A program made the position numbers and the translations under genes. The notes beneath the pieces were generated by a model that was not told where the DNA came from, made no database searches, and saw only the letters and a program-made list of their open reading frames with translations. This document shows positions 6,097-61,100 of a stretch of 64,000 nucleotides of DNA, piece by piece (within the stretch, counting starts at the first letter, position 1; each line of letters opens with the position of its first letter). Source of the DNA: Sipunculus nudus (lineage: Eukaryota; Annelida; Sipuncula; Golfingiida; Sipunculidae); NCBI GenBank assembly GCA_026874595.1, contig CM049317.1, positions 23,010,901-23,074,900 on the forward strand. Direction: 5' to 3'.

Positions 6097-6669
6097 TCAA
6101 GCAATTGCAATTAGCTGTTCCAATGATTGTCCGTATCTGATCTGTTTAATCCCTCCTCTTAAATCCTTTATGAAAACCTTCCCATCCCAAGTCCATGCCT
6201 CTTTTATTCTTTGGTCTTTTTTTACTCTGTTGTACAGTTCGTGAAGTTCTTTACACAAATCATCCACTATTACTACTCTTGATCCTTTGCATTTTCTCCT
6301 TTCCTTCATCACTATTTCTTTGACCTCTCTTCTCAGAAATTTAACAATAATTGCCCTGGGCCCCTTTCCAGAAGCAGCATTATTTCCAGTATATTTACCA
6401 ACTCTATGGGCAGCATCAATATCTTTTCTTTCAATGTCAACCCCAAGCTTTTCTTTGCAAAACATTTGCACAATTTCTTTGCAATTTTCTACTCCTATTT
6501 CATCTTGATCCCTCTCTCCAATACCAAAAATCCTAATATTTGCTTTTCTAGAGTACTGTTCAAGTTCAACTGACCTTCTCTGAGCCTCTCTAGCTTCTGT
6601 ACAGGACATGCTTGTCACCACTTCTAAATGAGCAACCTGATTTGATAATTTTTTAATATCACTTTTCAA
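6097..6669 (-). pseudogene. LINE ORF1p (L1-type RRM protein), N-terminally truncated, inverted
   Basis: 190 codons of an L1-type ORF1 nucleic-acid chaperone. A short coiled coil (KKLSNQVAHLE) is followed by the family signature LEQYSRKANIRIFGI, then DIDAAHRVGK and PRAIIVKFLRR, and the C-terminal DGKVFIKD. The start at 6669 is not a true initiator: the N-terminal coiled coil is missing and a stop lies just upstream, so the inversion junction is near 6680. The reading frame itself has no internal stop. Confidence 0.82.
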
Positions 6670-9600
6670 GCCTTCTCATATTATAACTACCCTATAGATT
6701 CAAAATGTTTCATTTCAACTAATTATTTTTATGGCAGATAATATTAAATTCCAAGTCCTCTCATTAAATGTCAGGGGAATAAGAAAATATATGAAGAGAA
6801 GACAAATCTTAAATTGGTTCATTAAACACAATAGTTATAATGGTGTAAGTTTTTTACAAGAATGCCACTGTACAAAACACGACGAGAATACATGGTCTAA
6901 TCAGTGGCGAGGAATAATGTATTTTTCACATGGAAATTCAAAGTCTTGTGGTGTATGTACATTAATTGGCAAGAATCTGGAATTCAGAGAAATTAATAAA
7001 TCTATAGATCTTTTTGGGAGGTATATCATTGTGGAATGTGAAATTAATGGTTTGCACTGTTTGCTTGTAAACATATATGCCCCAAACCATGAAACTCAGC
7101 AAGTCGAATTTTATGAAATGATCCTCACTGAACTATCAAAACTGACTATGGAAACAGATGTACAGATCATATGGGGTGGTGACGTTAATGTTCATCTTAC
7201 AGAACTTGACGCAGATGGAGGAAGGACCACTGTTAAATATAACCCTGTCAATAAAATAACATCCATCATGGAAGCTTTTAACCTGTGTGATATATGACGT
7301 CTCAAACATGAAGACAAAAAAAGCCTTTACTTGGCGATCAAATACTCCTTTAATTCAGAGACGTCTAGATTATTTTTTAATAACAAACACTTTGCAGTCT
7401 TTTGTTACAAAATGTGATATAATTCCATCTGTTAGCACAGACCATTCAGCAGTATTAATATATGTAAACTTCAGCAAAGATAACAAAATGGGACCTTCTC
7501 ACTGGTGTATGAACATTGAAATATTAAATGATACTGAATATTTGAAATTGATTAAGGAAAACATCAGTGAATGGAAACAGGAAATGAATACTGAAAAGGC
7601 AAAGACAAAATGGGAATATCTAAAATATAAAATTAGAGAGTTCACGATACAGTATAGTAAATTAAAGGCTAAACGACTCAGAAAAAATAAAGTCTGGTTG
7701 GAAAATAAAGTGGCTAAACTTGAACAAGAATTAAGATGTTCTGATACACCTGAAACGCAGGATTTATACCACACAACAAAGCAAAAGTTACAGGAACATT
7801 ATGACAACATCACACGAGGAGTTATAATCAGGTCAAGGGCTCAGTGGCTGCAACAGGGAGAAAAGGGGTCTAGGTATTTTTTAAACCTTGAGAAAAGAAA
7901 TAAAAATAACTCTGTAATAAGACAATTATATTGTAATGGTGAATATATTAAAGATTCCAAAGATATTATGAGATTTATTAAAAACACATTTGAAGACAAA
8001 TATAGGAAAAAAGTGTCCTGTGATGAAACTGAGTTGAAAGATTTTTTTCTAAGACTCCAAGCGCCAATGAACAAACTTAATGAGATGGAAGCTGAGTCAT
8101 GTGGGGCAAACATCACAAAAAGTGAGGTGTATACATGTTTAAAATCTATGAAAAATAACAAAACTCCAGGAAATGACGGTTTGACAAAAGAATTCTATAT
8201 AGCATTATTTGATGATCTTGGACAGTGTTTAACTGAATGTGTAAATGAAAACTATGATACTGGATCGTTGACATCAACACAAAAACAAGCTCTTGTTAAA
8301 TTAATTCCTAAACCATGAAAGGATTTAAACCATTTGAATGCCTGGAGACCGATCAGCTTGTTGAATGTTGATGTAAAAATTATAAGCAAGGTTTTAGTAA
8401 AGCGCATTGAAAAATATCTGCAGAAAATTATACAGCCTGATCAGTATACATTTATAAAAGGTCGATATATAGGAGAACCTATAAGATTGATTTGGGATAT
8501 AATGTACTATACCGCTGAAGAGAAACTCCCAGGGATTATGTTTGCAGCTGATTTAGAATCTGCTTTTGACAGTGTAGATCATGATTTTATTTTGGCAGCT
8601 TTAAAATACTTTGGTTTCAGTCATTCATTTCTTAGATGGGTAAAAATATTACATTACGATATACAGAGTTCAGTTATGAATAACGGATTCACAACAGGTT
8701 ATTTTCAGTTGGAAAGAGGAACTAGACAGGGTGACCCACTGGCTGCATATTTATTTATAATTGTTATTGAAATATTGGCTATAATGATAAGACAAGATAA
8801 AGATATTCATGGAATACAGATTGGAAATACCACTGTCAAAATGTGTATGTTTGCAGATGACACAACTGTTTTAGTTAAGGATGTTGATTCATTGAGCAAG
8901 GTTCTTGAAGTGCTGCAAATGTTTGAATATTATTCTTCACTTAAAATGAATCGTACAAAGTCAGAGGCAACTTGTATTGGGTCAATAAAAGATAAGGCAT
9001 TGGAGAATTTTAATCTGAAATGGATCAACCTTACAGTGTCAACCATGAAAATACTTGGGATTTATTTTTCATACAATGATGATTTGGTGTACAAAAACAA
9101 TGTCAAGAGGGTTGAACATAACTTAGCAACCACATTAAACATGTGGAAAAGCAGAACACTAACAATATATGGCAGAGCAGAGGTGGTACGCTCATTGGCA
9201 ATTACAAAACTTCTTTATGTAACTAATATGTTAGTACCACCAAATACTACAGTTAAGAATTTAAAAAGACTACTCTGTGACTTTATTTGGAGGGCTAAGA
9301 GGCCTAAAGTAAAATATGCAACAATTATTGGACAGTATGAGAAAGGGGGGATCAATTTAACAGACATTGAATGCAAAATAAAGACACAAAGAATAGTGTG
9401 GATTAAACGCATTTTGTGTTCAGAAGAATCTGCCAGTAGTAAAATTTTGAATTATAGATTAAGGAAGATAGGCGGATTGAACTGTTATAAGAGGAAACTT
9501 TAATATGAATGTGTTACCTAAAGGATTGCCAAGATTTTATTTGAAATGTTTAGAGGAATGGGCTTCATATGTATCAGTTTTGCCTGAATCGACAGAAGAT

Positions 9601-10671
9601 GTCATATATCAAAGCTTGTGGAATAATCAATATATAAAGATTAATAACAGACCTCTATACAACAAACATTATGTAAGTAGCAAATTATATTATATAAAAG
9701 ACCTGGTAAATTATGATGGAAAGTGGAAGCCATGGGAAAAAATACGGGAGAAGAATATATGTATGAATCACATTGATTATATGTTTTGGATGGCATTAAA
9801 ACGGGCTATTCCAAAAACTTGGAGAGACAGGTTTACAGGGTATGAACAAGTACATGATGAAGGAAGTGAAGCTGACAGTGTTGTAACTGTGAATGGTTTA
9901 GAGAAATTGGATACATTAAATGCTAGAGATATATATAAGACTTTGGTGGAGAAAATATGGGAATCTCCTACAGCTGAGAAAGTTTGGGATGACAAAAATC
10001 AAGAAAACAGTATCGAGGTGAAATGGTAACATGTTTATAGTGGAATATATAAAAGTACCTTAGACACTCATCTTAGAGAGTTTCAATATAAAATATTAAA
10101 TAACTACATTCCTCTAAATGATCTGTTGTATAAGTGGAATTTAAAGGAAACCCCTCAATGTTCATTTTGTTTTGAGCAAAGAGAAAAGATACTACATACA
10201 TTTCTTGACTGTATGGTTACTAGGAACTTTTACCTGAAAATAACATCCTGGTTACAGAAGTATAATGTGAATTTTCCACCAATATCACGATCTTTAATCA
10301 TATATGGCATGTTACCGGTTGGTGAAGATAACATGTTAATTAACCAAATTTTGCTGCTGTACAAATATGTCTTGTATAAAGAAAGAGAGGGCTATCATTC
10401 TGCTTTGTTTGCTGTATTTAAAAGTAAATTAATGGATATTGAAAATGTTGAAAGATACATAGCTAATAAAAAAGGAATTCTAAATACGCATTACAAAAAA
10501 TGGGGTGAATTGAAAAATATGAGTAAAAACTGAAAATTATACATGAGAACAGTCATACTATGTATGGTCTGATTATGAGAAACATAACTTGTATCATAAT
10601 GTACCTTGAACTATGTATAAGTATTTGTAATTGATTGTTTGTTTGACATTAAAAAAAATCGCCTATGATGA
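6102..10671 (+). mobile_element. L1/Tx1-like LINE, full-length ORF2, 5' part inverted, inactivated
   Basis: A non-LTR retrotransposon. ORF2 (endonuclease, reverse transcriptase, C-terminal Cys region) runs on the plus strand from 6731 to 10533. ORF1 (6097-6669) is on the minus strand, so the 5' part is inverted next to the start of ORF2, as expected of twin priming. AATATCAAG occurs at both ends (6093-6101 and 10672-10680) and is a candidate target-site duplication. The 3' end has an A8 run at 10651. The left boundary is uncertain because the ORF1 stop overlaps the candidate duplication. Confidence 0.85.
6731..10533 (+). pseudogene. LINE ORF2 (APE endonuclease + reverse transcriptase), five lesions
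   Basis: About 1,267 codons. The APE-type endonuclease has LNVRGI, FLQECH, NIYAP, WGGDVN, RRLDYFLI and STDHSAV. The reverse transcriptase has NNKTPGNDG, WRPISLLN, ADLESAFDSVDHDF, RGTRQGDPLAAYLF and the catalytic MFADDT. The C-terminus has a CSFCFEQREKILHTFLDC zinc-knuckle-like stretch. Lesions are a stop at 7295-7297 (TGA where the family has Trp before RLKH), one extra A in the A7 run at 7316-7322, a stop at 8316-8318 (TGA for Gly in KPGKD), a frameshift near 9480 and a stop at 10027-10029. With few lesions in 3.8 kb the copy is fairly young but cannot move on its own. Confidence 0.9.
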
Positions 10672-27500: not shown

Positions 27501-28624
27501 TGTGCTAACAGGAACCAGACCTCTCTTTAAACTTTTACAATACTGGACATGGCTTATAGCAGGAGATCCCTCAAGATCACACTCACATCCAAGCAATATA
27601 TGGATATTACAGATGTCTTTTTACTCTTTGGCTGCATGTTTATAATTTCACAAATGTCAAAGAAATCGCCGCACAATTAAAACATGTTCTGACATGTTTT
27701 CATGGACCATGATATTATTAAAACTGTCTTTTATCTTCTCTCGAGAGGAGTGTCCCAAGTCTATATATTTTATATCAGAATTCATGATTATTCAACGGCA
27801 TACAACACATCAACGCGAAATCTCGACCAAACTTGCAACGCACACCAATCGGTTTTTTTACGGTATATACTTTTCATTTTTAACATTTTATCGAAGGGGC
27901 TCCTGTTTGGGCTTCAGATTTGTATCTGTTTTACTACACCAATTTGACCAGAATTCTGAAAATGATTTCAAAACGAGTACAAAGGTTTGTGTCATGCTGA
28001 GTTTCCCCGATACAAATACGGACACATACATACGGATACATCTGGTCCGGTCCCTTTCGCTCTTTACATCCGACCTTGCTCAGGCGACCACCGCGGAAAT
28101 ACGACCACGATCGAGGTCCGATTGGTGGTCGTAATTCCGAGGTTTCACTTTATATATACAAGGCCTTTTTATTACATCATTGTTGGAATACTAGTACTGA
28201 GCCGTTTATATTGGGCCGGAGGGGAAGCGTACAGGGAGAATTCTGAAATGGCCGTCTGCCGCACCCTTTCCGCACAAGTGGAAACACTCCTTACATTTTA
28301 TCTTATTTTCGTGCCAATTATATACGTATCTATGACTAGACAAGTGGAAACGCACCGGACACTTACCGGACACTTACCAACTCAAATGCAACATGTCTTT
28401 TTTTGACCGTTCACCCACATCGAGGAGATTAATAAACGGGACCGTGCATCCTAGAATGTGTCCTACAGATGTATCAGAAATAGGAAGAGGGTATTATGAT
28501 ACCTATACATTCAGATCAAATAAAGTAGTTGGGTAAACACATCACAAGTCATTGATTTATAAAAAGAAATAACGAAAGTTCTCAAAAAATCTGACAAACA
28601 GCTTTATGTAATGTTAACACATAT

Positions 28625-28630
28625 TTTATT
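28625..28630 (-). terminator. Candidate PHF14 polyadenylation signal AATAAA
   Basis: AATAAA on the minus strand, about 104 nt after the PHF14 stop codon and in a plausible place for 3'-end cleavage near 28600. Single hexamer match; no transcript evidence. Confidence 0.5.
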
Positions 28631-28733: not shown

Positions 28734-31166
28734 CTAAGGATTTTGATTGGTTCCTGCAGCCTGGGATGGGCAAAGATGTTCACCACTTTCTGCGTCACTG
28801 ATGTCTTCATACTGAGGCATATACTGCTCCCGAAAACGATCAACGTGGGTGAGAGGTTTCAAAACCCCACCTCCACTTTCCAACACCGGTGCGACAGGGG
28901 CATTTCCACCTTCACTGGAATCTTGGACAGAGGCTGAATGTTTTCTGTCTGCCTGATAGTCTCTCGTCTGCTCTACTGGTATTTGAGGTGTCACTTTTGG
29001 AGTCTCTAGCTTTTTATTCTGAGCAAATTTTGTCATTTCAAAATGTGCCTCTGAGTCTGAAATTTCAATTGTTTCTTCCTTTACAATGATGTCCGGCTCC
29101 TGTTTTTTGTTTACTTTGCTAGAAATGATAGCATCAGCTGCGATTATACTTGATTTGGGTTTTCTCACATCACTAAGAGTAGCTCTCTCCAGATGTTTTT
29201 CAGTATCTTGAGTCACAGGTGTCTTATCGGGACTTGGTATATTTTTGGATGAAGTATTTTCAGCTTGACTTATATCTTTAAATGTACTGCCACCTTTTCC
29301 TTCTTGCTTCGCAACTGTTTCTTTTTCAGTTCCTTTGTCCCCAGCAGACTGACAATAAGAAAGCAAAGGTTCCTTCTTTGGCACCTCTTTGGTTTGGTCA
29401 GTTGCTTGGTCTTTCTTCGTCTCCGTCTTAGGTTCTCCTGGCTGCACTTTATTTGACAATTCTGTTGTCCCCTTAGGAGATAGAGGATCTGAATCGCCCT
29501 TGACCTTCTTCACTGGGTTGGCTAGTTTTCTAGAACGGCGTTTGTTGCCTTCTGACGGTTGGACAGCAGGGGGTGATAACTGCTTAGAGTCTAAAGTCGC
29601 TTTTTCTACGACATTTACAGCAGTTTCTACAGCCTTTGCCAACTTGGATAGTTTTCCTTTTTGTAGTGCCGTGGATAACTTGCTAAGGGCATGTCCTGGG
29701 GCACTCTTTGGACATTTAGAAAGGATGGTTTGTTCTTTTTTCTTGACCTTAGCAGGAGTCAAATCCTGCATTAAAGCAGCAGCATTTTTCTCAACAACAC
29801 CCTGTTTTGGATTAAGATTGTCGGGTGATAGTCCTGCTTTTCTCGTTGGACTGCTGTCTTTTACTGGTTTTTTCATAGATACAGCTGCCCTAGGAGACAT
29901 CTTCTTCCCTTCAGCAGCTGGCTTCTTATCGTCAGTTTGTGAATTTCTTGGTTCTGTGCTTGTTTTCTTCAGTTCCGGTTTCGTCTTTTTGGTTTCTGCC
30001 TTCTTCATTACAGGGATAGTCTTTTTACCTTCTGTAGAAGCTGTCTTTTTACTTTCTGCAGCCAACTTTTTCATCTCAGGTCCTATCTTTTGACCTTCAT
30101 CTGTTTGCTTGTTTGACTCTAGTAATGCTTTCTTGTTATCGTTTGTCTTTTCATCCTCTGTGTCAAGCTTCTTCAATTCTACTCCTGATTTTTTATTCTC
30201 TAGTATCATCTTCTTCAACTCAGGTGCTGTTTTTCTACCTTCAGGTAATGACCTTTTTAATGTCTTTTTACTCTCAGGTGCAGAATATTGTTTTTTACAA
30301 TCAGGCACAGTCTTTTTGCTGTCAGGTGCTAACATTTTTAGGTCGGGTACTGATTTCTTGACTTCAGGGACACTCTTTTTCATCTCTGAAACAGTCTTCT
30401 TACCCTCTGGAGCTACCTTTCTTACCTCAGGTAATGTCTTTTTACCTTCAGCGGTTAACTTTTTCACCTCAGATACTGCCTTTTTACTCTCAGATATCAC
30501 CTTCTTCACTTCAGTGGCTGCTTTTTTCATCTCTTGTGATAGCTTTTCAGTAGCTGGTTTCTTAACACTGGGCCCCGTCTTTTTCCCTTCATCTGTGTTA
30601 AACATTTTCCTTTTAGCTGCAGCAGTTATCTTTGCTGGTCTGGCAACAACTTCTGAAGTAGGAGCTGGAAGTTTTCCTTTCCCTTTAACTGGTGCAGCTT
30701 TTTTTGCTTTACCTTTTGATGCTGTTGGCTTTGCTTTAACCAATACCGGTGGTTTGTCCTTTGCGACAGATTGCTTACTACCTACACTTGGCTCATTCTT
30801 GATTTCTTCTAATTTCGGAATTTGTTTTAATTCTCGAGATGTAGCTTTACCCTTTGTCTTCAAAGTCGGACTCAATTCTACCTTAACGTCAGGTATATCC
30901 TCCCCTATATCTTTTGGTTTCTTATCTTGTAGAGTTGTTTTTTTAATTGCTGGTGTCCTTGGAACAGATCCTTCTTTCTTGGTTGCTGATTTTCCAACAT
31001 TCTCTTCGATATTCTCTAATTTACTAGATGTCTTGGAATCAACTGACTTTTTCTTCTTGATTCTTGCTGGTGGTGCCTGAGAATCTTCATCCATAATCTC
31101 TATTGAGTATGGTTCTCCATCTGATCCTGCATTCACCTTTTCGTCTCCCCCAGAAACATCATCGTC
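28734..31166 (-). CDS. PHF14: PHF14 last exon: 810-residue lysine-rich C-terminal tail
   Basis: 2,433 nt, phase 0 from acceptor TTTATATAG at 31167 to the stop at 28734-28736. It opens with DDDVSGGDEK and an acidic, hydrophobic patch (YSIEIMDEDSQ), then becomes a low-complexity Lys/Glu/Ser/Thr/Pro chain. About 29890-30590 encodes a decayed seven-residue repeat of the form KK-x-x-[PASE]-[ED]-x (for example KKTVSEM, KKSVPEV, KKSVPDL). Near the end IVKEE is followed by IEISDSE, and the protein ends EDISDAESGEH...TNQNP. There is no recognisable domain. It is read as coding because the PHD3 exon splices into it in frame and it stays open for 811 codons. Vertebrate PHF14 has only a short tail after PHD3, as I recall. 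The role is unknown; a histone-H1-like or DNA-binding tail is a guess. Confidence 0.88.
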   Translation of the reverse strand, partial: DDDVSGGDEKVNAGSDGEPYSIEIMDEDSQAPPARIKKKKSVDSKTSSKLENIEENVGKSATKKEGSVPRTPAIKKTTLQDKKPKDIGEDIPDVKVELSPTLKTKGKATSRELKQIPKLEEIKNEPSVGSKQSVAKDKPPVLVKAKPTASKGKAKKAAPVKGKGKLPAPTSEVVARPAKITAAAKRKMFNTDEGKKTGPSVKKPATEKLSQEMKKAATEVKKVISESKKAVSEVKKLTAEGKKTLPEVRKVAPEGKKTVSEMKKSVPEVKKSVPDLKMLAPDSKKTVPDCKKQYSAPESKKTLKRSLPEGRKTAPELKKMILENKKSGVELKKLDTEDEKTNDNKKALLESNKQTDEGQKIGPEMKKLAAESKKTASTEGKKTIPVMKKAETKKTKPELKKTSTEPRNSQTDDKKPAAEGKKMSPRAAVSMKKPVKDSSPTRKAGLSPDNLNPKQGVVEKNAAALMQDLTPAKVKKKEQTILSKCPKSAPGHALSKLSTALQKGKLSKLAKAVETAVNVVEKATLDSKQLSPPAVQPSEGNKRRSRKLANPVKKVKGDSDPLSPKGTTELSNKVQPGEPKTETKKDQATDQTKEVPKKEPLLSYCQSAGDKGTEKETVAKQEGKGGSTFKDISQAENTSSKNIPSPDKTPVTQDTEKHLERATLSDVRKPKSSIIAADAIISSKVNKKQEPDIIVKEETIEISDSEAHFEMTKFAQNKKLETPKVTPQIPVEQTRDYQADRKHSASVQDSSEGGNAPVAPVLESGGGVLKPLTHVDRFREQYMPQYEDISDAESGEHLCPSQAAGTNQNP

Positions 31167-34100
31167 CTATATAAAGAAAACAGTGAGTTAGACCTCAAAT
31201 CATAATGGTATGTTTCACAATTATTTTTACCAAAGGCTACTGGGCTATTACATGAGCATTTGTCATACACATTCAATTAAATTTTGTGTCACACTTGTGT
31301 ATTCCGTGTTAATACTGTGACCTAGTGAATATTACAATGGATCAAACAGCATCGCTATTGAAGCTTGCTTTATTGGCAAAGTGGTTGGAACACTGCATGT
31401 ATGCCATAAACATGGGTTTGAACCTAGGAGCTAACCTATGGTATTTTCCCATGTTAAAAAAAGAAATATATATATACACATTTATATATAGTGTTGTTTT
31501 TCTTATACGTGATATATATATATAAATATATATATATAAAATAATGCTCTAAATTCTTAGGTGGACAATGAGATGCTTTTATATGGTCAATGTTTTTTTT
31601 TATCAAAAGATAAAATAAATATATGATAATTATTATTGAGGAGCTACTTGTTTTACACCACTTAAGACTGATTAATTTCTCTTTAATCACTTTTCATTTG
31701 ATGGTACTTACAGAGTTGGTAGGATCACATGCTGTGCAGTGCCATGCATATCCTCGCTGTTTGGGGGACTTCCTCAGTGGTGGATCCAAGCAGTGGAAGT
31801 GATAGCAAAGTAGACATACATCACACCTGAAGAGAACAATGAAGTATAATCATAATACATATACTGAGTGTGTTTTCCTTTCCTTTACCAAAGACATGCA
31901 GGACCTTCATATGTACAGTATTCAAGATGTGTGTTGGAATATTACTGTTGGAGTGATGCAAGACAACAAGTCACACAGGTGACACTGGTATCCAGGTTTT
32001 AACACTTACAGATTTATAAATTTATACTGAGAAAATGCCAGCAGAATAGATACTGGTATGTAAAAATAAACATTGGATAGATTGACTCCAAAAAGTGAAA
32101 TTAATAACCTAAATTTTCAATGTAAGAATGGCAAAATGGCTAAAAGAAGATTATTCAAGCAACCCTAATACAATGCTTACTTTTTCTCTGATCCAGTTTT
32201 TTAAAGATAAATCATATAATTTAGCTAGACACAAATAGAAGGTACTAAAGCTAAGATTCTGTTTGTATGGAATATGGATCCGGCATGCAGGAAAACTGGT
32301 ACTGACTAAATAAATCTGGTGTGATTCCTTATGTGCGGATCTGGCATATGAAACTGGCAAAATGAATCACTGCATGTAGTAAGTTTATTTCTGGTTTCAC
32401 ATAATAAACTGGAGGAAACACAGAAAATTTACATGATGTCATGCTGGTACATATGAAATCATTTAACATGCATTCCAAATGCATAAAGATTCTTTGCTTA
32501 ATTCAGTTGTTCAGGTGGCTATTTCTGCTGAAGCAGACTTGTTTGAACGTGGAAGAAGAATTTGTTACCTGACAAGATTACTATTGGTGCCGGGCTGGTT
32601 ACACACACAACATTCAGTAAGGAGAACTTCTGGTTTCAGTCGGGGGACTTGCAGTGACCGGGCTGGTCTCACACGCTTCTTTGGAGGTGGCGGCTGCAAA
32701 ATAAATCGTTCTTTTAACTGGGTAAACTGCTAGTGTGTTGAAAATTATATGATCAGCTGCAGTTGTATTCCATGATCTGCTAGCATACTGAGGACTGACA
32801 CTGATCACACACAGTACAAAATATATATAGACTTCTGTATATTTTACCCTTGAAATATCAATAAGACATGATCATAAAATGAATATAAATATTATTTTTA
32901 ATTCAATGATATTTATTTATTTATTGCCTCGGCCAGGAGGGTATGTGTTCATCCCCCTTTGTGAGTTCACATTTATTCTTTTGTGTTTCTTCAGAATTCA
33001 AAGCTAAATGTTAAGATTAACAGCAGTTTACTTCAATGCAACAGGACAGATGATTGTTGCAGTACATTCCCCAATATGGCTTGTATCTCGACTCAAGTTA
33101 GTTTGACTTATCAGCCAAATATAAATGCTTACAGAGTTGTGTATTCTGATCATATGATGGAACTGAGGGTGCATCACCGTTTTCTTACATCTCTCTGACT
33201 CTGACTTAACATTGTTATGCAATACTCACTGTTGTTTCTATGGTGACCACTGGTTCTTCGGGTTCTTTTGGAGGCTGTGTCATCGTCTGCTCTTCCTCTT
33301 CCACCAATTTCCTCTTGGCTCCGCTTTTCTTCTTCCTCCCCTTCTTAAACATCCTCTGTTGGTGGATTACAAATAACAATTAGAAAATGTTCATAGAATT
33401 TTTGTTGGTGGAGGTGATCCATTTTTTAATGCTTGCTTAAAAAAATACTATGTACATCAGCAAAATCCCACTGCAGTTTCAGACTATGTGACAGGAGCTT
33501 ACATGAAATAATTCTGGTGTCACCCAGGCTCAGTGTACCACCCCTGTTGGTCTTTGGTGTGTGTCATCCCCATGGCTGGATCAAAACATCAGAGAACCTC
33601 TGAAAGGCGTACTTGTTTGTGAGAGAACGGAACTATTGGGCACAGTTTTCCCTATTAACTTAATAATAAGTCTGCAGATTGCTTACCCTATATGGGGATT
33701 GACCATGAAAAATCTCAACATCTCTGCTAGACCACAGATACAGTGTATTCAGTGGATTTACTGTACCTTGTTATGCAATGGAATTTTAAAACTGACAAAA
33801 GTGCCAAATGAAGAATTCTGAGAAAAATGACAAAATATGCGAAGCATACACCAGAACTTAATTGGGTGTGTAGACAAATCAGATAGACCTGCCTTGTTAA
33901 TTAGAAAAAGGATATAATTAACACTATTTAAGATATTGCTCACAAAAAAAGATGTTTAACACAAAATCTTAAAATTCATTAAAAATTCAAAAAAAAGAAC
34001 CAAATGCGACCTCATCCTACATAATTAAGGCAACCCATGACATATACCTATCATCTTAATCAGACTTGAATATACGAAACAATATCTGACCTTTTTCTCT

Positions 34101-37100
34101 TTGACTGGTGGTGTGAATTTGACTGGTTCCTTTATCTTCTCTCGCAGTTTCATTGGAGCATCAGGATGCGGTCCTTTCTCTGAAGACTCGTCGCTACTCG
34201 AACTCGCACATTCTGAACACTGCCTGGAATCAAAACAAACCATCACAGCTGTAGCTTACAGCTCATGAATACTAACATACAAACAACACAGCTACAAAAC
34301 TCTTCAAAACTGAGAACATGACTGTATATTTTATTATGCTACTAGAAGGAATATGTAACATTGAACTCCACAATTACCGGTATCACCACCTAGGGGACTA
34401 ACCAAAGGGGTCATAATTTTGAGGTGAACGCAAGACTGGGTTCCACTAGATGGCTGTGCTGAAAATCTTTAGAACATTTTTATGAAATTATAACAGTTTA
34501 TTTGTTCTATTAATGTACAATTATTGCTGTAGATTTTGGCATCTTGTAAGTACAGTGGAACTCCACAATTATGACCATCTTGGGTCCAGTTACCTGGATC
34601 ATATATTTGGGGATCATTGGTTGTACTGGTGGAGTAGTCACAATTGTGGGGAGTCCATCTTCAGTTAATTTTTATGATATTATAACAGTTAATTAAATTT
34701 ATTTATGAACAATTATTTCAGAATTTTTTTGCATCTTGATGACATACCATCCCTGCTGTTTGGTTTTCTTTGGCATCCTGGTAAGCGGGGGATCTAGACA
34801 GCCGAGGTGGTAGAATAGTTTACATTTGTCACACTTAGCCAATTGATGCTGATCATTGGTCTTCTTACAAATACCACACCTGAAAAAAGACAGTTGTTAT
34901 ATAACTATCAATGTTGGAATAAAATCCTACAATAGTTAACCAACACATCGCCACACAAAGTCAAATAATGCAACAATTTCATCTGATGTTTCTGTAAAAC
35001 CAGTCTCTCACTGCACAATTTTTTCAGCCAATTCCGTGAGTCAGGCAGTTATATACCAACCTTTGGTACAAAATGGTATTGTGTGAGACCCAAATCCACC
35101 CAATATTTCACTGCCAGCATACTTTAAGAGGCATATCCTAGCATTGTCCAAAAAAAAATTCATCCAGTTTTCTCAGGCCACACGTGAAATTGTATAGTGA
35201 CAAATGGAGCAACAATGGAGAAGTGGATCCTGTGACCTTGACCTTTGACCTTGTGACCTCAAAATAAATATGGTTCTTCCCCTGTTGGTAGGTGAGCTGT
35301 ATGTGAAAGATGTAAGGTATGGGATGAAAGTTTTGGCTAAAAGAATTATTTCTGGGGGGTGCAAACACACCCCATGACTTTGAGAATATAGGTCGCAGTG
35401 ACCTTATTTCAGGTTTGCAAGGAGATCTTTTTAGAACCTCTAAGACTGCATAGGGTTCATGGCCCTAACCCCTACAGTTATGATTTGTGCCCTGCTAATG
35501 GCCGGACGGACAGACGGACGGACAGACGGAAGGACGACGGACAAAGACCAATCGCTATAGCCAAGCATTACTGAAAATCAGCTGAGCTAATAATAAGATA
35601 ATTGTATGATTTTTTAAAATAAAATACAACTGAAATGATTATTAAAATAATACCAAAGAATATATTCATGAATGCATTCATGAATACATTTTGAAAGTAT
35701 TTGCACTGGTATTCATATACTTTCATTTTTACCTGAATTCCCATTCTTATGCAAGAAATTTTATAATGGAGTACATATTCATATTCGTATTCAAATACAT
35801 TTGCAAAGTATTCACACCATGTTTGGTATTTATTCAGTTTTCACCAAACAATGATGTTGAGAATCCAGAATATACAAAATTCAAACATTTAAATATTGAT
35901 CATAAGTACCTGGTTTTATTGCTTTTATTCATATTAAAAAAAATAAATGTAATATATTCATTTTGGACTAATTTCACATCAATGTACACACTAGACACAG
36001 CAGGAATCTAGATTAATATTATCAACTGCATCTTTGTCTATCATTTATTTCCTTCATATGATCCCTAATGATTAGTAATGAATAACATGATTTATTTTTT
36101 TTTTATCATTAAAATTGAACTGAAAAATACCATAGGTGACTGCATGGTGTTATTTGGAATACGTGACATTCTATCCATCGATACAAGATTCTTATACCAT
36201 CAGTAACTGCAAGTTAATTTCCTGTTATTATCAACTAAAAAATTCCTTTTCCATTCTTCTTTTATTTGTTATTAAAAACCAATAAAAATTTATTAATTTA
36301 TTGTTTATTGTTATGTTGTTAGTTAAAACTACTAGATGATTTGGGTTGGACACCTGGATCAACTGTGGCTGGCCATAAGCTGCCTGGCTGCCCCAGTGTA
36401 TGCCTCGCATCAAGCATGCATAATTTGATGAAAGGTCAACAAGATCAACATACAGATGACTCAAGAGGGGCTGGGTTGAGCTAAGGTCTGACATGGTCTC
36501 ATAAAAACATTAATAAAAGCTACAATTTTTGGCCAATTTTTTTTCAGCTTTCTTATGTGTGCTGAAATCCTTATGTGTGCATGATATGAAAATTATATCA
36601 ACAGTGCTCACAGGAAACAAACGTGCCATGGTCAAAGTTTGGCAAAATTTAAGGTACTAATTATATATTTATACTAATAACTTGTAAAATTCGAAAAATT
36701 CAGAACTAATTTTGGGTATTCAATTGAATCTTGATTAAATATTGTTACATCCCTGACATAAAATCTCTAGCTTCAGCAATCCTCTCGATAAGGGAGTAAA
36801 TATATTTCTTGATTTTTTACAAAGTGCATTATGTTTGGGCCGATAACTTAAAACAATTACGCAATACTGACATCATTTCCAGCATGTGCATAGAGAATGT
36901 ATAGAAAAATATGTATATTATATATGATTAAAGTCACATCAGTGGCTTTGATATTAGGCAGTCCTGAAGTGAAACAATGGGTTTTTTAATGGAAAAATTA
37001 AGTTTTTCATTAATATCTCGAAGGTATTAAGTCCTAGTGACCAAATTCTTGGCTTGGTAGGGGATTTTGGAGACATCTAATTGTATGCCAAATTTTAGGA

Positions 37101-46100: not shown

Positions 46101-49100
46101 GATTTTCTATACATGATAGATATCTATGATCTGTTATAAATTATTATCTAGGTTGGTATTTGGTCAACTGCCACAAAAGTAAAGGATTATTATGCAGAAA
46201 ATATATTGTTTTGCCGAAAATATGAACAAATATTCACAATAAAATAATGGAGTGGCAAATGGATGTAATACTTTCAGCCAACCAAATATCATGACTCTTC
46301 ATGATTTTTTTAAACATTTTCCAAAAATTCTGTGACTTTTACATGATTTCTTGAACATTATCTAAAAATAAATGAATGTTCAGTACATAAAATTCACATT
46401 TAAAGTGATAACTTTTCCAGAATTTTTAAGCATGTATGACCCCTGTTTAACGGTTTTCTTGAACCTTCTTTAACCTCATTTATCATTACTACACTTAATG
46501 ACTTGAGAGTGATGTTGATACTTATAGTCAGGTGCACAGTTCTTCATTAGGATGCAGACAATACTCACTGGTGAATTACATGTGGGGGTGACTTTGGTGT
46601 GTCTCGCCTACTCGGTGACTTGGGTAGCTTCTGTACACATAAAATCTGTGGTACTTCTATTGGCTGTCAAAACAAAATGATATAAAGAAAAATTATTCAA
46701 ACACTGTTATCCATAAGAGTTTATAATGCAACCTCCCTGGCTAAACCCTTTCATGAAAAATCAATCCAAAAGTCAAATTAAGATTTTTTTCTAATAGTAG
46801 ATGTATTCAATCTATGTGAAGTCTACACACTCCCATTGTACAGCAACTCTCAGGGCCATTATTTTATCTAAAGCTGACTGAACAAGCAAATTTATGGAAT
46901 TTATGTCCTTTGCTTCTGCCTCTTGTTGTCTTTCATGCTTGCTTTATCAATGTGTTTCATTTTTTATGTTGGATGGCAGATGTCTCCACATGTCATACTG
47001 GATCTGTTTTAGTTTTTTTCATGCCCTGAAGATGTCTCCATATATGTCTCATTATTTTGGACGTGAAGTAGGGTCAAAATTTGATCAATATTCTTTGCAG
47101 CTGGTGAGAATAAATTTTCAGAAAGACTCCAAAACCAATCCCAACCAAAGTATACATGAGAGCAATCAGTGACCCAAATTTGAATAATATCAGATAATTT
47201 TTAGGAAAGTTATCACATGAAAACAAAAACCTGACAGATGGACAGATAGACAGACAGACAAAGCTAAATTAATGTCCCCAGTTCCTTTCAAGGAAGCAGG
47301 GGACAATAAGTGCAAATGCAATTGTTTTCTATCAAAACATTACAGAAATTCCCCTGCAAACAAACCTCTTTTATTATTTCTTGATACTCAAATAATCTGA
47401 CAATCCCCCTTAATATTCCCTATTTTGTATTGTATTCCACAATTTCTGCAATAAGGAAACTTTAAGGGGCATTATCTTCCCAAAAGCTTAATGATTAAGT
47501 GTGAATGCCCATGTTATTCTAACAAAACACTACAGGAGCACATAGGCATATATCTCTTTAATGTATTCTAGATCCTCAAGATACTCCTGTAATCCCCTTT
47601 GTACTCCATATTTTAGTATTTACCTTGTCTGCGAGGTCACCAAGGATATCCCAGACTTTCTCTCCTTGTTCCCTCAGTATTTTATTCGTCTGACGTAATG
47701 TCTCCACATCTCTCATCACCTGGTGAAAAATAAAACAAGTGACCCATGGGTCATGACGCTCAGCTGCCAAGCATGACCTGTGACATCATGGACTGAGATT
47801 CACAACTTCCAGTCAAATTTTGAAGAACCAATTTGCCAATTTGTTGAAAATTTTCTATGACAACAGAAATATATATCACCTATGTCTGGTTAAAACACAG
47901 TGAATTGATGGTCTGAGGAAAATGCATGATTGTTAAGCTATCAGGAACTATTCCAACAGCTTGCTTGAAACCTGTCAGTCTCAAAGGAACACCACAAAGG
48001 GAAAATATAAGATCAAAATATATAGCAAAAATCAAGGAAATACATGCAAGAATTATTGAGAAACAGGTGCTTCTGTATGAATTTTTATTCAATACAAGCA
48101 AACTGTACTGCACTTTTATAAATGATGGTAATATTTATTCAGAAATATTTGACCCAATCCTTTACAAGATTACATAAATATACATCCAACTGCATTCACT
48201 TTAACTGTTCTTGAGATAATATGATCAAAAGGAATTAAAAGATGGTTGCCTGGTAGCCATATTGGACTTCTAACAAGTCTGAAATCAGACAACAAACATT
48301 CTCTAAATCGGACCAAACATTAAAGAAAAATTACTGAAACTGCACTGAAGAAAGGATTTCTAAGGTGGCTAACTGGCAGACATTATGGATTTCTGACAAG
48401 TATGACATTTGATATCCCACATTCTCCAATAAGAGACCAAACTTTGGCAAATTACCCAGTTATGAATGCCCAAAATAATTCAAAAGGCATGTCCAGGCCC
48501 TCATATCAGATTTATAGATATGCAATTGTAAAAAGTGTAAGTCCAATATTTTTTATTATCACTCTGCTTTTCAATAGGGTCAGCAGGGTAGGTAAACTGC
48601 CAAACCTGAAAGAAAAGAAATGCAGAAAGCATGACTAAGAGTCTTGAAATAAAACAAAAAGCCATCCTAAATCAAGGTACACATCCACATATTATGAGAA
48701 CAAACACTTGCTTTTATATGTGGTGATATATATTAAAATATTCAGATATCTAGGAAACTAAGTAAGTTTATTGCTAGGATTCCATGAAATAAACTGCAAA
48801 ATGTTCCCATCATCTTATAAATCAGTAGCTATACCTTAATACTATACTCTCATAGTCTTAATGCCTGGCTGAAGCATTCTGACAACAGTGTTTTTGTTAT
48901 GAAGTAACAAGGTACTTATCACTGAGCCTTATCACTTAATAGGCTGATACAAAAGGGAGTCATATGTCACCAGTGTCACTCACAATTACAGCCACACAGG
49001 GAGATGTACCAGCTGGAGTGGGATGGTTATATATACAAGAAAAATAGAGATGGTCTATAAAATAAGTAATTGTGAACATCCCTGACCTATGACCTTGGCC

Positions 49101-52100
49101 TTTTGCCCATATATCAACTGGATTCTTTCTAAATGATGGGTAACTACTAACCACTTAAATCTGGTGTAATTACTTGGCAACCAATGGGTGAATAACTTTG
49201 ACCTGCAACCTTTAACCTGCTGACCAGCTGACCCCAAAATCAATAAGTTATTTATTCAAGCAAAAAGACCCATAAATATGAAGTTTGAGTCAAACTGAGT
49301 GATGCATAGATGTGGCATATGTGAAAGACTGAAGGTTTGGGTTGAACAGTTTCACTTGAAATATGCTCATAAGCATTTAGAACAATTAAATATTGTGACC
49401 TTGACCTTTGACTTTTTGACCTCAACATCAATAGGCTTCTTCCCTTATTGGTAGGTAAGCCATATATGACAGATGGAAGGTACAGATTGAAAAGTTTGCC
49501 TGAAAATGATTCCACACAAGAAGTGGGTGCTGTGAACTTGACCTTTGACCTCAAAATCAACAGGTCTTTTCCTCTGTTGGCAGAGAAGCGATATCAGTGC
49601 TGGAAGGTTTGGAATGAAAAGTCTAGCTTGAAATGTGTCCACAACCTTTTCAAAGAAGTGGATCCTGTGACCCTGACCTTTGACCTTGTGACCTCAAAAT
49701 CTATAGGATTCTTCTCCAACTTAGTAGGTGAGCTATATGTGAAAAATCAAAGAATTGGGATGAAAGGTTTGGCTTAAAATGCATCCACAGGCTTTTCAAA
49801 GAAGAGGCTCCTGTGACCTTGACCTTTGACCTTTTGACCTAAAAAAAATTATGGTTCTTCCCCTGTTGGTAGGTGAGCTGTATGTGAAAGATGGAAGGTT
49901 TGGGATGAAAATTTTGTCTCAATGAGTTATTTCTGGGGGGTGCAAACACACCCCATAACTTCGAGAATATAGGTCGCAGTGACCTAATTTCAGGTTTGCA
50001 AGGAGATCTTTTTATAACCTCTAAGACTGCATAGGGTTCATGGCCCTAGCCCCTATGGTTACGATTTGTGCCCTGCTAATGGACGGACGGATGGCCGGAC
50101 GGACAGACGGAAGGACGCCGGACAAAGACCCATCGCTATAGCCCAGCATGACTGAAAGTCAGCTGAGCTAAAAAACATGAATTTACTCATCGTTAATACC
50201 ACCAGCAGGGGATGCCAATATTCTTGTAGTAAAAGCTGTGTCTTATAACAATACTTTATTCTTTGGAACAGATTTACCCAAAACTTACACACTGTTAACT
50301 ATGGTTTTATATGGACATCAAATGATATTTATTTACAGTCCAGCAGTGTAAGAAAATGAAGAAGATTGAACAGAATATACATTAAAACTTATTAAAGTTC
50401 CTTGATAATTTTTCATTTAAATACATGAGCAATATACCAATAAGTTCTACATACCACCTGTAACATCTGGGTTTTAGTGTGTATGCAAAATGGCAGGCCC
50501 CATGAGCAGTTTTGAGAAAGTTAACCTGTCAGATTTGGACAATGGTGCGCAATTGCGACATGAAAGAACTCCAAGCACAATATTCATGCTAGAATCTATC
50601 TGTGGAGAGGGGGTTTTGTATCAGCAAAGTTTAGAGTGGAATAGCACTATTCTTGGACCACACCCAAAACTTATATCAGATTTTATCAGGTTATTCTCTG
50701 ATAGGATTCACACTAATTTACTGTCTATGTGTCACAGGAGAACATGTGAGAAAGAGTTCTAGCATCATGCACAAATCTAACAATTCACTCTAGAAACGGA
50801 ATGAGTCTGCTGACCGTTTGGCTCCTCAAACAGTGGTTAATCACTGCAGTCATCAATGATCACTTTTCTTGTAACCTCTGCTTTGTATTGCAAGATTCTT
50901 GGGGCACAACCACCAGGGTAGGCACAGGGCAAAGAATTGTAATCAGATCAAAGGCAGTGTGGTATTACATTGTGGATCCAGCTCCAAATGTTAAACATGC
51001 TGTACCCCCTAACCAGTTCTGGCACAGGGCCATGAGTAAGACCAACGAAAGCTAGTGTCCCGGTGTAATCAGACCAGTGAGAACTGTCATATATTTAAAA
51101 TTTGGAGCTGGATGCACAATGCAATACCGCGTTCTAATTGGTTTTAATACACTGTCTGTGCTCTGTGTCCACCTTAGTGGTTGTGCTCTGAGAATATTGT
51201 TAAACAAAGGAGTGCTTTCATAAAAAGATATCTGGGATAACTGCAGTGAATAACCACTGCAAGAGACGAGACAAGGTGACAGAAAGTTAACAACTGATAA
51301 CTTTTTGTTACTGACTGTGCTGCTAGCACTCTGTCAGCTGCTGGTGGTTACCTGGTCATACTTGAGTCTCAGCACTGTCTCCTGTTCCTGTAACTGACTA
51401 GCCTGCTGGTTCAACTCACGAATGTGATTCCTCAGGTTACTGACCTTGGTGTTACGCTCTGAAAATGATCAAATACAGCTATTAACTGACCATAATTTCA
51501 CAATGTTTCATTCAAGGTTCATATAAAAGCCTGTGGGTGATAAAGCTTATAAAGACTTAATATAGTGGTCACACATCAACCTGGCACTCAGTGTATTCAG
51601 AGATGCAACACACCAGTATGAAATCAACAAGCATCATACAGGGGTGACATCACTAGGCTCTGTGACTTACAACCCTGGAATGAAACTGACCATGCACATA
51701 TGAATGTGCTGGCACATGTATGCTTCTGAACTGTTTTATTTAAGAACTGTTTCACTTGAGAACTTAGTCAAAATATTGTGACTGTACATGTTTGGTTGTT
51801 TTGGTAACATGCGTGGCCTTTAAATAAAAATATTATGGTAGCCCTATCATCCTCAGGCTAATATGCCACTCTCAGGTCAAAAAAAGAAGGCAATACGCAA
51901 CAGGCCATTTAATAACATATAAATACGATTCATGATGTCTTTTCAACATAATCAAGATTTCCGCCAAACCAGCTTCCATGGTTTAGGGGTAGAGCACAGC
52001 ACAAGTAGCTTGGAGGTCATGAGTTCAAATCTCAGCCATGGAATGGAAAGATTTTCTCCTTTAACCCCAACCCAGGGTGAGCACTCTGCATGTTTAATGG

Positions 52101-55100
52101 AAGGCTGTGCCCAACGGCTGCGTATCACTCACAAACAAGTGCATCTTTGGAAAGATTCCTTAGTGTTATGACACAACAATGGGAATGATTACACCCCAAG
52201 GCTCTGCAGGTGCAGTAAACAGCAGGCCTGAGTGACACCAGGATGTAAAATAAATGACAGAAAGCGAGTGCTACCACCCTGTCAGACAGTCCCAAACTAA
52301 AATGGGAAGGATTTCCACCAAGGTTAAAAGTGTGTCCACTTTCTTGAGTGTGGGAGAAGGGACTGCTTAATATATACATGGGAGTTCAAAATTATATATT
52401 ACTCCATTCCCTCATTTCTCTGGCAGAATTTTAAATGATAATCACAGCAAAATGAGCCCATTCAGCAGTCTAAATTTTGGAGTCATGGACACTCTTATGG
52501 CATCTATATGTTACAGGTAACATTGAGCAATCTATGTGAAGGTTAATCAACATAACTGGGCTTTCACTTAAAACATGCATTAAGATCCATTAAGGTCCTC
52601 AATTAGGGCCCCACAATTGCCAGTGATTGGTCTGAAATTTATGATAAAAAATTATAAAAAAGTGTCAATTTATCATGACACTATCTAAAAAGTTATTGTG
52701 AAAGGATTTTGACATATTTGTCTGGCAGCCATACTAGATTTAAAAGGAGTCTGAAATACTGTGGTTGGCTTTATATTCGCAAAGCTGAAATTTTGCAATT
52801 TCTTCATTTTGAATGTTTCACGAGGGTTTCATTTTTGCGATTGCACCAGAACTTGTACAATCTAAGTACAGCAGGATCTGTATTGATGTAAAATTTAGAA
52901 AAGAAAATCCTACAAAACCTTACTTATTACTGGTTCGATCATTAAATTATGACTTTAATCACAGTCAATATGTATCACAGCGTGTGAGTTCAGCTGATGC
53001 ATGGGCCAGTTTCGAAAACCGGCACAGATATGGTTGCTGATAAGATTGTTTTCAGAGGTCAATCATAGTTGATAGGGCCTCTTATTCCCGAGGGTTTCAT
53101 ATTCGCGATTATTTCATATTCGTGAATATCTTGAAATTAAAACCTTCGTGAATAAAAAGGCAACCACAGTAAGAAAGTACACATCAGTGATGGGTGTCAA
53201 TATTCTGTTAAATTTTTGCAAAAGAAAATTATTCATTGTGCTCTGGCAGCCATATTGGAATTTGGACAGGTCTGGAGCCCTCATGCACACCAATCATTCC
53301 TATGAATTAGAAAAAGATCAAATGAATTCTGTTTGAGATAATGCCCGCGAAGGAAACACCATGGGGGGCGAGCAAGGCAATCACTTTAGGGCACTGCTTT
53401 TTTTAAAGCTAATGTGTACTACATTTAATGTGAAAGAGACATAGTGTGTTTGTTTGTGAGCAGTTTTCACAGAATGAGACAATTGATTCTCACCAAGATA
53501 ATAACTGATGTATTCCACAGAGAAGGCTGGAGCTACATGTAGTCTCTTTCTCATGTCTTTAGGGTTTGAGTCATTCTGTAATAGAAACTTGTATCAAAAC
53601 AACCTGATCAATGACAAAATGTATGGTATCAGACTGTTTAAAACAAATGTATACAAGTCCTGAAAAAAAAACAGTATAAGTAAAAGTATATCTGAATATT
53701 AGAAAAAATCTCGGTATGATGAAGCAGTACAGTAAAACCTGTGTTACACAGACCAGTTATAACCAGTGTGAATGCATTCAGATCACTCAAGGGTGGTCTT
53801 AATAGACAGGTGACCTTCTTAGACAGATGGTCTTTCAGACAAGTTCTACTGTTCTGTATAACTTAATCTGTAAAATAAAATATATGATAATGCTGAAACA
53901 TACAGAGACTATCTATAAGGACTGCAAATGCTAGACTGATTAATCAAAATTTTCAAAGAGGAGCAACCAGTATGATTTCTGATGGGTCTGACATGGATAA
54001 TTGTGATTATTTGTGTCTCTCACAAATATTAGTGAATATTCACTATTAACATTACTTTCAATAATCAGGCTGCTTTTTTATAATACAGTGGAACCCCACA
54101 ACTATAACCACATTGAGGACTGACTAAAGTAGTCATAAATTTGGGTGGTCATATTTATGATATTCTAAGTTACCTGGATTATATATTCAGGACCATTAAA
54201 AAGTGGTCATTCGTGGGGTGGTCTAATTTGTGGGGTGGTCGCAAGGTGAGGTTCCACTGTAATTCATCACCTAACCCACCCTGATAATCAATATTTAACT
54301 TCTTTCTTGATACACAAACCTTATCTTCTGGCACATTTATCACTGTATATAGTTCAGAGCTGACATAATTCATCTCTTTTAAATGCTACAAATGTCATCC
54401 CTTTTCAGAGAGACAGTTACTCTGTCAAAAAATATTTTATCATCAAAAAAGATACTTCATTTCAGAAATACAATCCTTTGCCTTATATATGCTTTTCTCA
54501 TCGGGTATTCTGTTATCTTTAATACAGACACATGTTAATAAACCGTCACTTATCATGATGATATGTGTTACTCACTGCTGTACTGAGACCAAGAAGTTCA
54601 GCCTTTTTCAGTAACCTCTTTACAGCCGAAGGACTTGACGTCAACAAACGTGGCATTTTCTCTGTAGGAACTAGTAAGATAAAAAAATTTAAGTTAATGA
54701 ATACACAAAATAGCACTGAAAACAAAGAATTCTGCACCAAAGCACACTCACAACATGACCAATTTGAACAAGTGACCCATGGGTCATGACGCTCAGCTGC
54801 CAAGCATGACCTGCAAACATCATGGGCTGCAATTCACAACTTCTAGTAAAATTGTTGCAGAACCTATATGCCAATTTTGTTTAAACTTTCTACATTGCCA
54901 TAAATTCTTATCATATATGTCTGGTTAAAACAAAGTGAATGATGGTCTGAGGCAAAATGTATGGTTGTTGAGCTATCAGGAACTAATCCCACAGCTTGCT
55001 CAATACCTGTCAGTCTCAAAAGGAATACCACACAGGCCACATATAAGATCAAAATATAGCAAAAGATCAAGGAAATCCATGCAAGAATTATTGTGAAACG

Positions 55101-58100: not shown

Positions 58101-61100
58101 ATCGGTCAAACGGTTCCCGAGATATGCAGGTTTATGTGTGGAAACAGACGCACAAATGGACGCTGGGCAGAGAGGAAAGGTCAGAGGTCAAGGCCAATTG
58201 GTTAGGCACCAGTTCACATGTGACCTGATAACTGGTGTCAGTTTCGGAAAAATCCATAAGTAGTCTCAGAGGAGTTCTCTGGAAATGAACGCCGCGGCGG
58301 TGGCGGTGGCGGCGGAACTTGGTCAAAAACATAGTATCTGCAAAACTTCATTTTGGCGGATACAATAATTTACCAAACTCATAATATGGCTTCTAAATAC
58401 ATAAATGGCTTAGGTATACATGCAGTGAACAAATAGATGTAGTCCATAAAGATATTTTGGATTAGTATTAGATATAATGTTTTTTCCTTCCACATTTCCT
58501 CGATAAAATGTCATCAAATCCAATCAATACATTTTGAGTAAAGTTTTGAGCAACCAACCAAGGGAAAAACATAATGCATATATAGTATAGTAATATCAAA
58601 AATAGTTATCATATGAAAAACATGTTTAATGAGGATAAGCAGGGGAGCAGTTTCTATTTGCAGTATGGTTGGGATGAGAACTTTAACACATCACCCCCCC
58701 CCCTCCTCCCCCCCCCCCAAAAAACCCTGCACATACACACATAGGCCCTTGCTACAGGGTATACCACATTAAACCAACTTATTTTCTCAATATAGCTAAA
58801 TAAAATTAATAATAATAATAGTTAACTGTGACACACGTTTCTCTGAGCTTCACATATACTGTGATTTCCTTTCTGTTAGTCAGAATTTTCAAATGAGGGA
58901 TATTCACAAAAGGGGCATAAGAGGCTCATCGCTGAAGGACATTTGAACAATCTGAAGGAAAATGAACAATATGATGAACAATAGCACCACAAATGTGCAA
59001 ATATACCTGTCGTGTATCTCGTCACCTCTGACCTCATTTAATATGCATGAGTTTTGATGAGAAGGTAATTCAGGTAAGAAACTCTATTGGTAAATATGTA
59101 TAATGAGTTTCATGAAATTCCATAGGATTTATGGTAAGTCACAAAGGTGCCTCCAAAGTGCGGTGACCTCTGACCTCATTTTATATGCATGGACTTTGCT
59201 GGAAATCAAACTTAGGCCAGATTTTTTTATTGATAATCATTTCTGATGAGTTTTATCAAAATCCTTCATATTCTTCATTAGTTATCACCACAAAGTAGCC
59301 TAGGGACCTGTGACATTATCAATATGGGTTGATGTTGCCCATAATCAAACTCAGGTGAGATAATCTGTTGGTATGAAGTTATGGTGAGTTTTGTGAAAAT
59401 CCATCAAAGCCCTGGTAAGTTATCACGGCAACACTAAAGGTATAATGGGCTGATAGATTGATTGGTTTTTATACCATAATACTTCCGTCATATGACGGCT
59501 GTATAAAAAGTTAAAATAGCGAAATTGTACTCCTGCAAATTTGAAGCCAACCACAATATTACGCATGTATTGCAAAATTTACAGTCAGCAAAAGATAGCA
59601 AAGGTAACCAACTGGCTACTCATAAACCTTGTGGAATTTAGGAATATAAAACTCTCTGTTTTTTGTTGTATTTTTTTTAAATTTGACTTACCCCATGACG
59701 GCTGTCTCTTCAGTTTTGCCGCGGTATATTTCTGTCTGTGTCTATTCAGCTTCCTCTGGAAGCGGAACTGTAGGTAACACACAGTAACATAAACATGATA
59801 AACTTAATCTATACTCAAAGAGAGTACCGTTTTTCTCCAAAGATAATCCATACTTTTTGTTGTCATAAGGGATACAAAAATCCTTGGTGTGTATTATACA
59901 TGAAGTTAAATTCTAAACTATTTTCCTGCTGCACCGAACATCATTTGAAAACATCAGATGATGTTGAGCAATTATAAAAGATAAAGAAGACAAAGGTTGC
60001 TGGTTTAATTTTCAATTAGATAACAAAGTTTGCTTTTTTTATTGCTTTTATTTTCAAATATTTCAAATATACCTTTAATTAAGATTACAACCCCAGAGAA
60101 TTGATGATAGGCAAACTGAAATATGCATGACAGTAAGGCACCATTTTGCTGGCATCATTTGATAGCATTGTTTGTTGGTAGATAGTGCTAGATATAACAC
60201 TGGGGACCAATGTCAAGGCCAGGTGTTTGATCGGTGCTTCTTTCGGGGTATGATTCATGACACATTTATTACTTTCTAAACAAATGGAACCAAGTGTGGA
60301 ATAATGACCTGATTTTTTCCATAGTTTTAATTACCCTCCTGTTGAGAGCATCATGGTCAGATTGATCATTTATGTAATCACAGCCACTGACACAGGGTGC
60401 ATATCATACATGCACTTAAATGGTTTTTCAACAAAAATTGTAGCTGTAAATGGAAGAGGAGATTATCTAATGTAGCAGATTATCTTCGGTGAAAGACCAT
60501 ATACCTACACTTATACCTGAAATCAAGTATGCAGATGTACATACATGAATATTATACAAAGACTTATTTCAAACATACAGGGAAGATTATTTCATAGTTT
60601 GTTAGAGATATGATACCTTGAATTAAACACCTACCCTGGCAAAAAAACTAAAATACTTTTCAGTAGTTAGAAACAGTTATTGCATTTATTTTATAAGTCT
60701 ACTGATGTATATACAAAATGATCATATACACATTTTGAGTAACAACTTAGAGTAACTCTCACTTTTTCCTTCTCATCATCAATGTCTGCATCCTTGTATT
60801 GTTTCAGATGAGACTTGACTGCCAGCCAGTTGCGTCGCTTCGCTCGGACCACTGCTTTATCAGCATGCTGTTTACAGTAGGCAAAGAAAGGGTCCGCAAT
60901 TTCCTGTAAAGTAATTAATTACCAGAATGAATAATTAATACTGATAGAATTTTACCATTTATTTTGCCAATAATTTTTCCATAAGTTTTATGAATTTATT
61001 ATTTGCATGAGAGGCATCCACATTGAGCATTGCAAACAAGAACACTGACAGGCAGGGTTCAACATCAAAGATTACCTGCTTGCCCAAGGCAAGTAAAAGT

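Follow-up and report, generated by a model that had tools for sequence, protein, structure and literature searches.

A PHF14 gene of Sipunculus nudus with an 810-codon last exon and a degenerate heptad array in its predicted tail

The stretch of DNA analysed here, a window of 64,000 nt from Sipunculus nudus, carries on its minus strand a gene that by its sequence can firmly be identified as PHF14. Fifteen exons (e1 to e15) are readable within the window, one of them, e9, with less certainty. Open frame, phase, splice signals and likeness to human PHF14 guided their choice, and the splicing of the model is read from the DNA. The gene runs past the window end at 64000, which leaves the N-terminus and the N-terminal PHD1 outside view. 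The first 80 residues (e1 to e3) align without a gap to 7d86, given in passages of PMC10113255 as the zebrafish PHF14 PZP structure (phmmer, E 1.9e-36), and the next-best other protein for the PZP segment is AF-10 (phmmer, E 3.3e-06). With this 80-residue alignment a PZP/ePHD domain of the PHF14 type is present. Moreover, the spliced protein has one match to Pfam zf-HC5HC2H and two stretches matching Pfam PHD (8.8e-18), the two C-terminal PHD fingers. The original prediction had called the gene PHF14, and the 7d86 match together with the two PHD stretches bears this out.

Concerning the individual exons, e1 (63670..63764, minus strand, as all exons that follow) covers the middle of the PZP/ePHD, e2 (62807..62849) continues it and e3 (60763..60903) holds its end and the following residues; all three were placed by the phmmer alignment to 7d86 and by splice sites. 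Exons e4 (59692..59767), e5 (54576..54661) and e6 (53494..53575) were placed by open frame and splice phase fit. The region between the PZP and the C-terminal PHD fingers is coiled-coil-like by eye, in e7 (51352..51458) and continuing in e8 (47624..47719); both exons were placed by splice fit, and the region gives a sub-threshold Laminin_I match (residues 171-233, E 0.0045). The less certain e9 (46569..46663), a 31-residue linker entered in phase 0 and left in phase 2, is one of seven phase-compatible candidates found by script. PHD2 lies in e10 (34748..34879), which holds the best Pfam PHD stretch (275-323 of the spliced protein), and ends in e11 (34091..34223; splice fit, Pfam), which also encodes a linker; e12 (33230..33355; splice fit) encodes a basic linker. 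The first half of PHD3 is in e13 (32569..32693; splice fit, Pfam) and the second half in e14 (31712..31826), for which phmmer finds PHD fingers among proteins of known structure, UHRF2 2e6s being the best match (E 2.8e-05), and which has the donor TCT/gtaagt. Together, e1 to e14, from 63764 down to 31712, encode 484 residues ahead of the last exon.

Several further features lie in the window. A non-LTR retrotransposon at 6097-10533 gives Pfam matches on the plus strand to RVT_1 (8319-9500, E 1.7e-32) and zf-RVT (10030-10530, E 4.9e-09). A minus-strand frame of 192 residues (6675-6100), ORF1-like by eye and with no Pfam match, stands head-to-head with the plus-strand frame starting at 6698. 5' inversion of non-LTR retrotransposons arises by twin priming, and the head-to-head layout is one that such an inversion would leave. 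Within PHF14 introns, closely similar translated stretches reading GHEPYAVLEV[L/I]KRSPCKPEIRSLRP occur at 57073-56732, 50045-49842 and 35464-35141, and these are probably copies of one interspersed repeat. Two minus-strand frames with no Pfam match, one of 148 aa (4135-3689) with a sequence that is signal-peptide-like by eye (MRLSIFLITVCIPTVFSG) and one of 104 aa (482-168), are possibly exons of a neighbouring gene. A short tandem repeat, ACCGGACACTT, in 2.3 copies, is found just downstream of PHF14 (28354-28378). Rfam gave no match in the 64,000-nt window.

The last coding exon, e15 (28734..31166, minus strand), holds an open frame of 810 codons closed by a TAG stop, and would thereby add a tail of 810 residues. 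The length of this frame is far beyond chance, at a probability of about 7e-24 given the exon's own base composition; across 300 mononucleotide shuffles the longest open frame had 147 codons. The acceptor reads ttatatag/GACGATGAT (ttatatag/GACGAT), the triplet ahead of the frame being the acceptor's own TAG. Since e14 ends in phase 0 at ACCAACTCT/gtaagt (31712) and the frame of e15 opens at its acceptor, the two exons are predicted to join in frame. Hereby the claim that the PHD3 exon splices in frame into an exon of 811 codons agrees with a phase 0 donor at 31712 and the acceptor at 31166, and so does the claim that this exon makes up more than 60% of the visible protein, as the tail accounts for 810 of 1294 visible PHF14 residues (62.6%, with the 31 residues of e9 counted in). 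The long frame has its first Met early, at tail residue 25, and could on this ground be a separate intronless gene next to PHF14 whose acceptor match is due to chance. We regard this as extremely unlikely, because the frame opens exactly at the in-phase acceptor and this acceptor scores highest (5.4; next 4.6) among the 80 AGs examined from 31705 to 30701. Translation of e15 as part of PHF14 is what we infer.

The splice sites were scored with a small matrix made from the other 14 exons, and by this crude score the e14 donor and the e15 acceptor are acceptable, not strong. The acceptor at 31166 ranks tenth of the 15 acceptors of the gene model and lies in the 93rd percentile of 3430 AGs on the strand. 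The donor at 31712 scores 4.1, which makes it the second lowest of 14 donors and puts it in the 87th percentile among 3604 GTs. Within e15, at least six GTs outscore it; the best of these, GAG/GTAAGA at 30426 (minus strand), lies within the heptad array described below and scores 10.1. With such modest scores at 31712 and 31166 and stronger donor-like sites inside, e15 may be spliced otherwise. Moreover, retention of the intron between e14 and e15 leads to an in-frame stop at 31694, 15 nt into the intron (...CDPTNSVSTIK), and an AATAAA lies in the same intron at 31374 (31369..31374, minus strand), so that intron retention or intronic polyadenylation after e14 could yield a tail-less PHF14 isoform. 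In such a case e15 would be one of several 3' ends, next to a short PHF14 or to internally spliced forms, and the full tail would be minor or tissue-specific. We judge this unlikely; the intronic AATAAA stands against 1.3 such hexamers expected there from base composition. For the full-length form, an AATAAA is found about 104 nt past the stop codon (28625..28630, minus strand), one of two observed in the 734-nt stretch that follows it, where 0.43 are expected from base composition.

The tail is rich in lysine (K 18.3%), followed by S (9.1%), E (8.9%), A (8.3%) and P (8.0%). It has 168 basic and 117 acidic residues of 810, a net charge of +51, and is a basic-leaning polyampholyte that is only moderately basic. 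Counted in blocks of 90 residues, the net charge runs -3, +14, +13, +7, +13, +8, +8, -2, -7; the tail is thus a basic middle flanked by slightly acidic ends. With so small a surplus of positive charge over its whole length, and a negative balance (-7) in its last 90 residues, the tail may have only slight affinity for DNA. By charge and hydropathy it lies on the disordered side, with a mean H of 0.387 against a boundary of 0.436, and among its aromatic residues there are no W, 5 F and 6 Y. From this composition the tail is probably disordered.

The original prediction had compared the tail to histone H1. H1 tails as a class are very high in K, have almost no acidic residues and carry S/TPKK motifs; Khadake and Rao are said to have described SPKK octapeptide repeats in the histone H1 C-terminal tail in 1997. 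Both the H1 C-terminal tail and the PHF14 tail are lysine-rich parts of chromatin proteins with a short periodic basic motif, and the most basic stretch of 100 residues (tail 130-229; 30480..30779, minus strand; K26 R2, 8 acidic, P9, A15) comes nearest to H1 in composition. Yet even this stretch has its 8 acidic residues, and for the tail as a whole the likeness is weak. A motif scan of the 810 residues found no S/TPKK, no globular winged-helix domain of linker histones was detected in the tail at Pfam curated cut-offs, and with K at 18.3% and 14% acidic residues the tail is a poor fit to that of H1.

Within the basic middle, tail residues 207-425 (about 219 residues; 29892..30548, minus strand) form an array of heptads of the type KK-x-x-[P/S/T/A]-[E/D]-x, which the original prediction had not noted and which was detected by lag-7 and lag-14 identity, by DNA periods and by the codon test given below. 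Residue identity at lag 7 is 0.327 (z 10.9), with z 10.0 at lag 14 (tail residues 206-420, 500 shuffles). In 70-residue windows covering residues 666-910 of the visible protein, which lie inside the tail, lag-7 identity is 0.21-0.46; elsewhere it is at most 0.13. The heptads are degenerate. Twelve contiguous units at 30548-30297 (tail residues 207-290) form the core and read [K/R/E][K/M]xx[P/S/T/A/Q][E/D]x, starting with KK in nine, RK in one, KM in one and EK in one; position 6 is acidic in all 12 and position 5 is proline in six. Short degenerate K repeats with P and S/T or E are also known from the N-terminal TPxKK repeats of nucleolin, the PEVK repeats of titin and the KSP repeats of neurofilaments, which have units of roughly 6-8 residues. 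The likeness is one of pattern, and the PHF14 array differs from these in its register KK-x-x-P-E-x with an acidic position 6.

The DNA of the array still has periods of 21 and 42 nt, and TRF finds a 42-nt repeat at 74% matches; with these periods retained, the array most likely arose by tandem duplication. Codon agreement at lag 7 over residues 207-290 is 0.64, 0.61 and 0.42 at codon positions 1, 2 and 3, as compared to 0.32, 0.30 and 0.29 for shuffled codons. We permuted synonymous codons among unselected identical residue pairs and ran 12 combinations of this test. At lag 7, identical residues shared the same codon in 15 of 35 pairs over residues 207-290 (15.0 expected) and in 29 of 70 over residues 207-425 (33.2 expected), where pooling of lags 7-28 gave 111 of 241 (111.1 expected). 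Since the 15 of 35 pairs equal expectation, the higher agreement at position 3 can be put down to amino-acid identity. The lowest of the 12 tests was that of the core lysines at pooled lags 7-28, where 35 of 59 pairs shared the codon against 28.4 expected, a value reached by 47 of 1000 permutations; this excess and the 42-nt repeat suggest a possibly younger age for some of the array. An estimate of pS 0.75 and pN 0.39 from 23 heptads picked by regular expression was set aside, because selecting for K and E biases pN downwards and one pair of units overlapped.

As codon sharing is no higher than expected, the array looks old, its protein pattern having outlived synonymous similarity. A protein pattern that is kept while synonymous similarity decays argues for translation and constraint, and in this one genome the decay would be the best evidence here that e15 is translated and old. 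By the same token, decayed synonymous similarity between the heptads argues against a recent gain of the tail.

Homology searches of the tail gave little. No Pfam family was found at curated cut-off (sub-threshold MCPsignal 0.021 and KxDL 0.13), and NCBIfam gave nothing. Against PDB sequences, the whole tail had ten matches at E up to 10, all of them over the array region and probably driven by heptad composition. Most of the matched sequences are designed proteins, with 6egc the best at E 4.1e-04. A heptad coiled coil would call for hydrophobic heptads free of helix breakers, and such matches might point to one, but proline occupies position 5 in six of the 12 core heptads. Tail residues 133-186 had no match to PDB sequences, nor had the last 143 tail residues at E up to 10. 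In viral contigs no relative of the tail was found, and pieces of PHF14 had no true relative in viral and in bacterial and archaeal genome contigs. Two 14-residue matches in viral contigs (L001 and L002) were dismissed as chance, as no PHF14-like sequence lay within about 300 bases on either side.

Two segments stand out in the C-terminal part of the tail. SUMO-acceptor sites and SUMO-interacting motifs (SIMs) are defined by short patterns, for the SIM a hydrophobic core followed by an acidic stretch. A motif scan located IIVKEETIEISDSE (tail residues 693-706; 29049..29090, minus strand), in which a SUMO-acceptor-like VKEE stands beside a SIM-like IEISDSE, the one match to the SIM pattern in the tail. 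The second segment, LTHVDRFREQYMPQYEDISDAESGE (tail residues 772-796; 28779..28853, minus strand), is non-repetitive and may, as a guess, be a docking motif. Both the SIM and the docking readings would follow from motif resemblance.

Long disordered tails are common on chromatin proteins and vary widely. The main rival to a tail with a role in chromatin tethering is therefore that of an ordinary disordered low-complexity extension, an entropic linker or solubility region of little specific function that drifts under weak constraint on charge only. It would accord with the disordered composition, with the lack of a family at curated cut-off and with the lack of a tail relative in viral contigs, the sole collection of contigs searched with the tail. 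The heptad pattern that persists despite decayed codon similarity speaks against it, since more than bulk composition has then been kept, at least in the array, and so does the non-repetitive C-terminal end. We consider an ordinary extension possible, with a chance well short of even.

In vertebrates, PHF14 stops a few tens of residues past PHD3. A passage of PMC10061232 gives a length of approximately 500-900 residues for PHF14, a length that fits such a short vertebrate end, as the part of the Sipunculus protein in view, which lacks the N-terminus, already comes to 1294 residues. The Sipunculus protein resembles vertebrate PHF14 in its gapless PZP and in having two more PHD fingers after the region that by eye looks like a coiled coil, and it differs in carrying 810 residues past PHD3. 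No description of a long PHF14 tail was found in passages of PMC11728296, PMC7048395, PMC10113255, PMC5386714, PMC9687778, PMC3700892, PMC10502114, PMC10061232 and PMC7057672, which are a small part of the PHF14 literature. According to passages of PMC11728296, the PZP of PHF14 binds H3 in its unmodified form and also interacts with MeCP2 and TCF20; in mammals HMG20A likewise binds PHF14. The same passages place mammalian PHF14 in a chromatin complex with MeCP2, TCF20, RAI1 and HMG20A that is tied to neurodevelopmental disorders, and of which PHF14 may act as the bridge.

The reading we favour, with somewhat better than an even chance, is that the PHF14 tail is a disordered polyampholyte chromatin tether with weak multivalent contacts and a C-terminal docking segment. 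The array would have grown by tandem duplication, its amino-acid pattern being kept while synonymous similarity decayed to about background. Translated within PHF14, the tail would stay disordered, and its evenly spaced KK pairs could hold on to DNA or nucleosomes through weak, multivalent contacts. These would lengthen the residence on chromatin of a protein whose PZP and PHD fingers read histone H3. Partner proteins or SUMO might dock at the acidic C-terminus, which carries VKEE/IEISDSE and the VDRFREQYMPQYEDISDAE segment. The tail would thus act like a polyampholyte chromatin tether, unlike a true H1 domain. A far-reaching extension of this tether would be that PHF14 here carries in cis an ancient heptad chromatin-binding arm and a docking end, takes over the work for which vertebrate PHF14 relies on its large partners TCF20 and RAI1, and so stands in, as one protein, for a reader complex of several subunits; we hold this to be very unlikely.

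The PHF14 tail appears to be an unusual protein extension and not a new kind of system, and within it the old heptad array most deserves attention. If an orthologue were to carry a long, constrained basic arm, it would offer a case made by nature in which to study how readers come to stay longer on chromatin. Should the tail turn out to be widespread beyond vertebrates, the short form of vertebrates would be derived, and the original proposal that this lineage gained the tail would be turned around.
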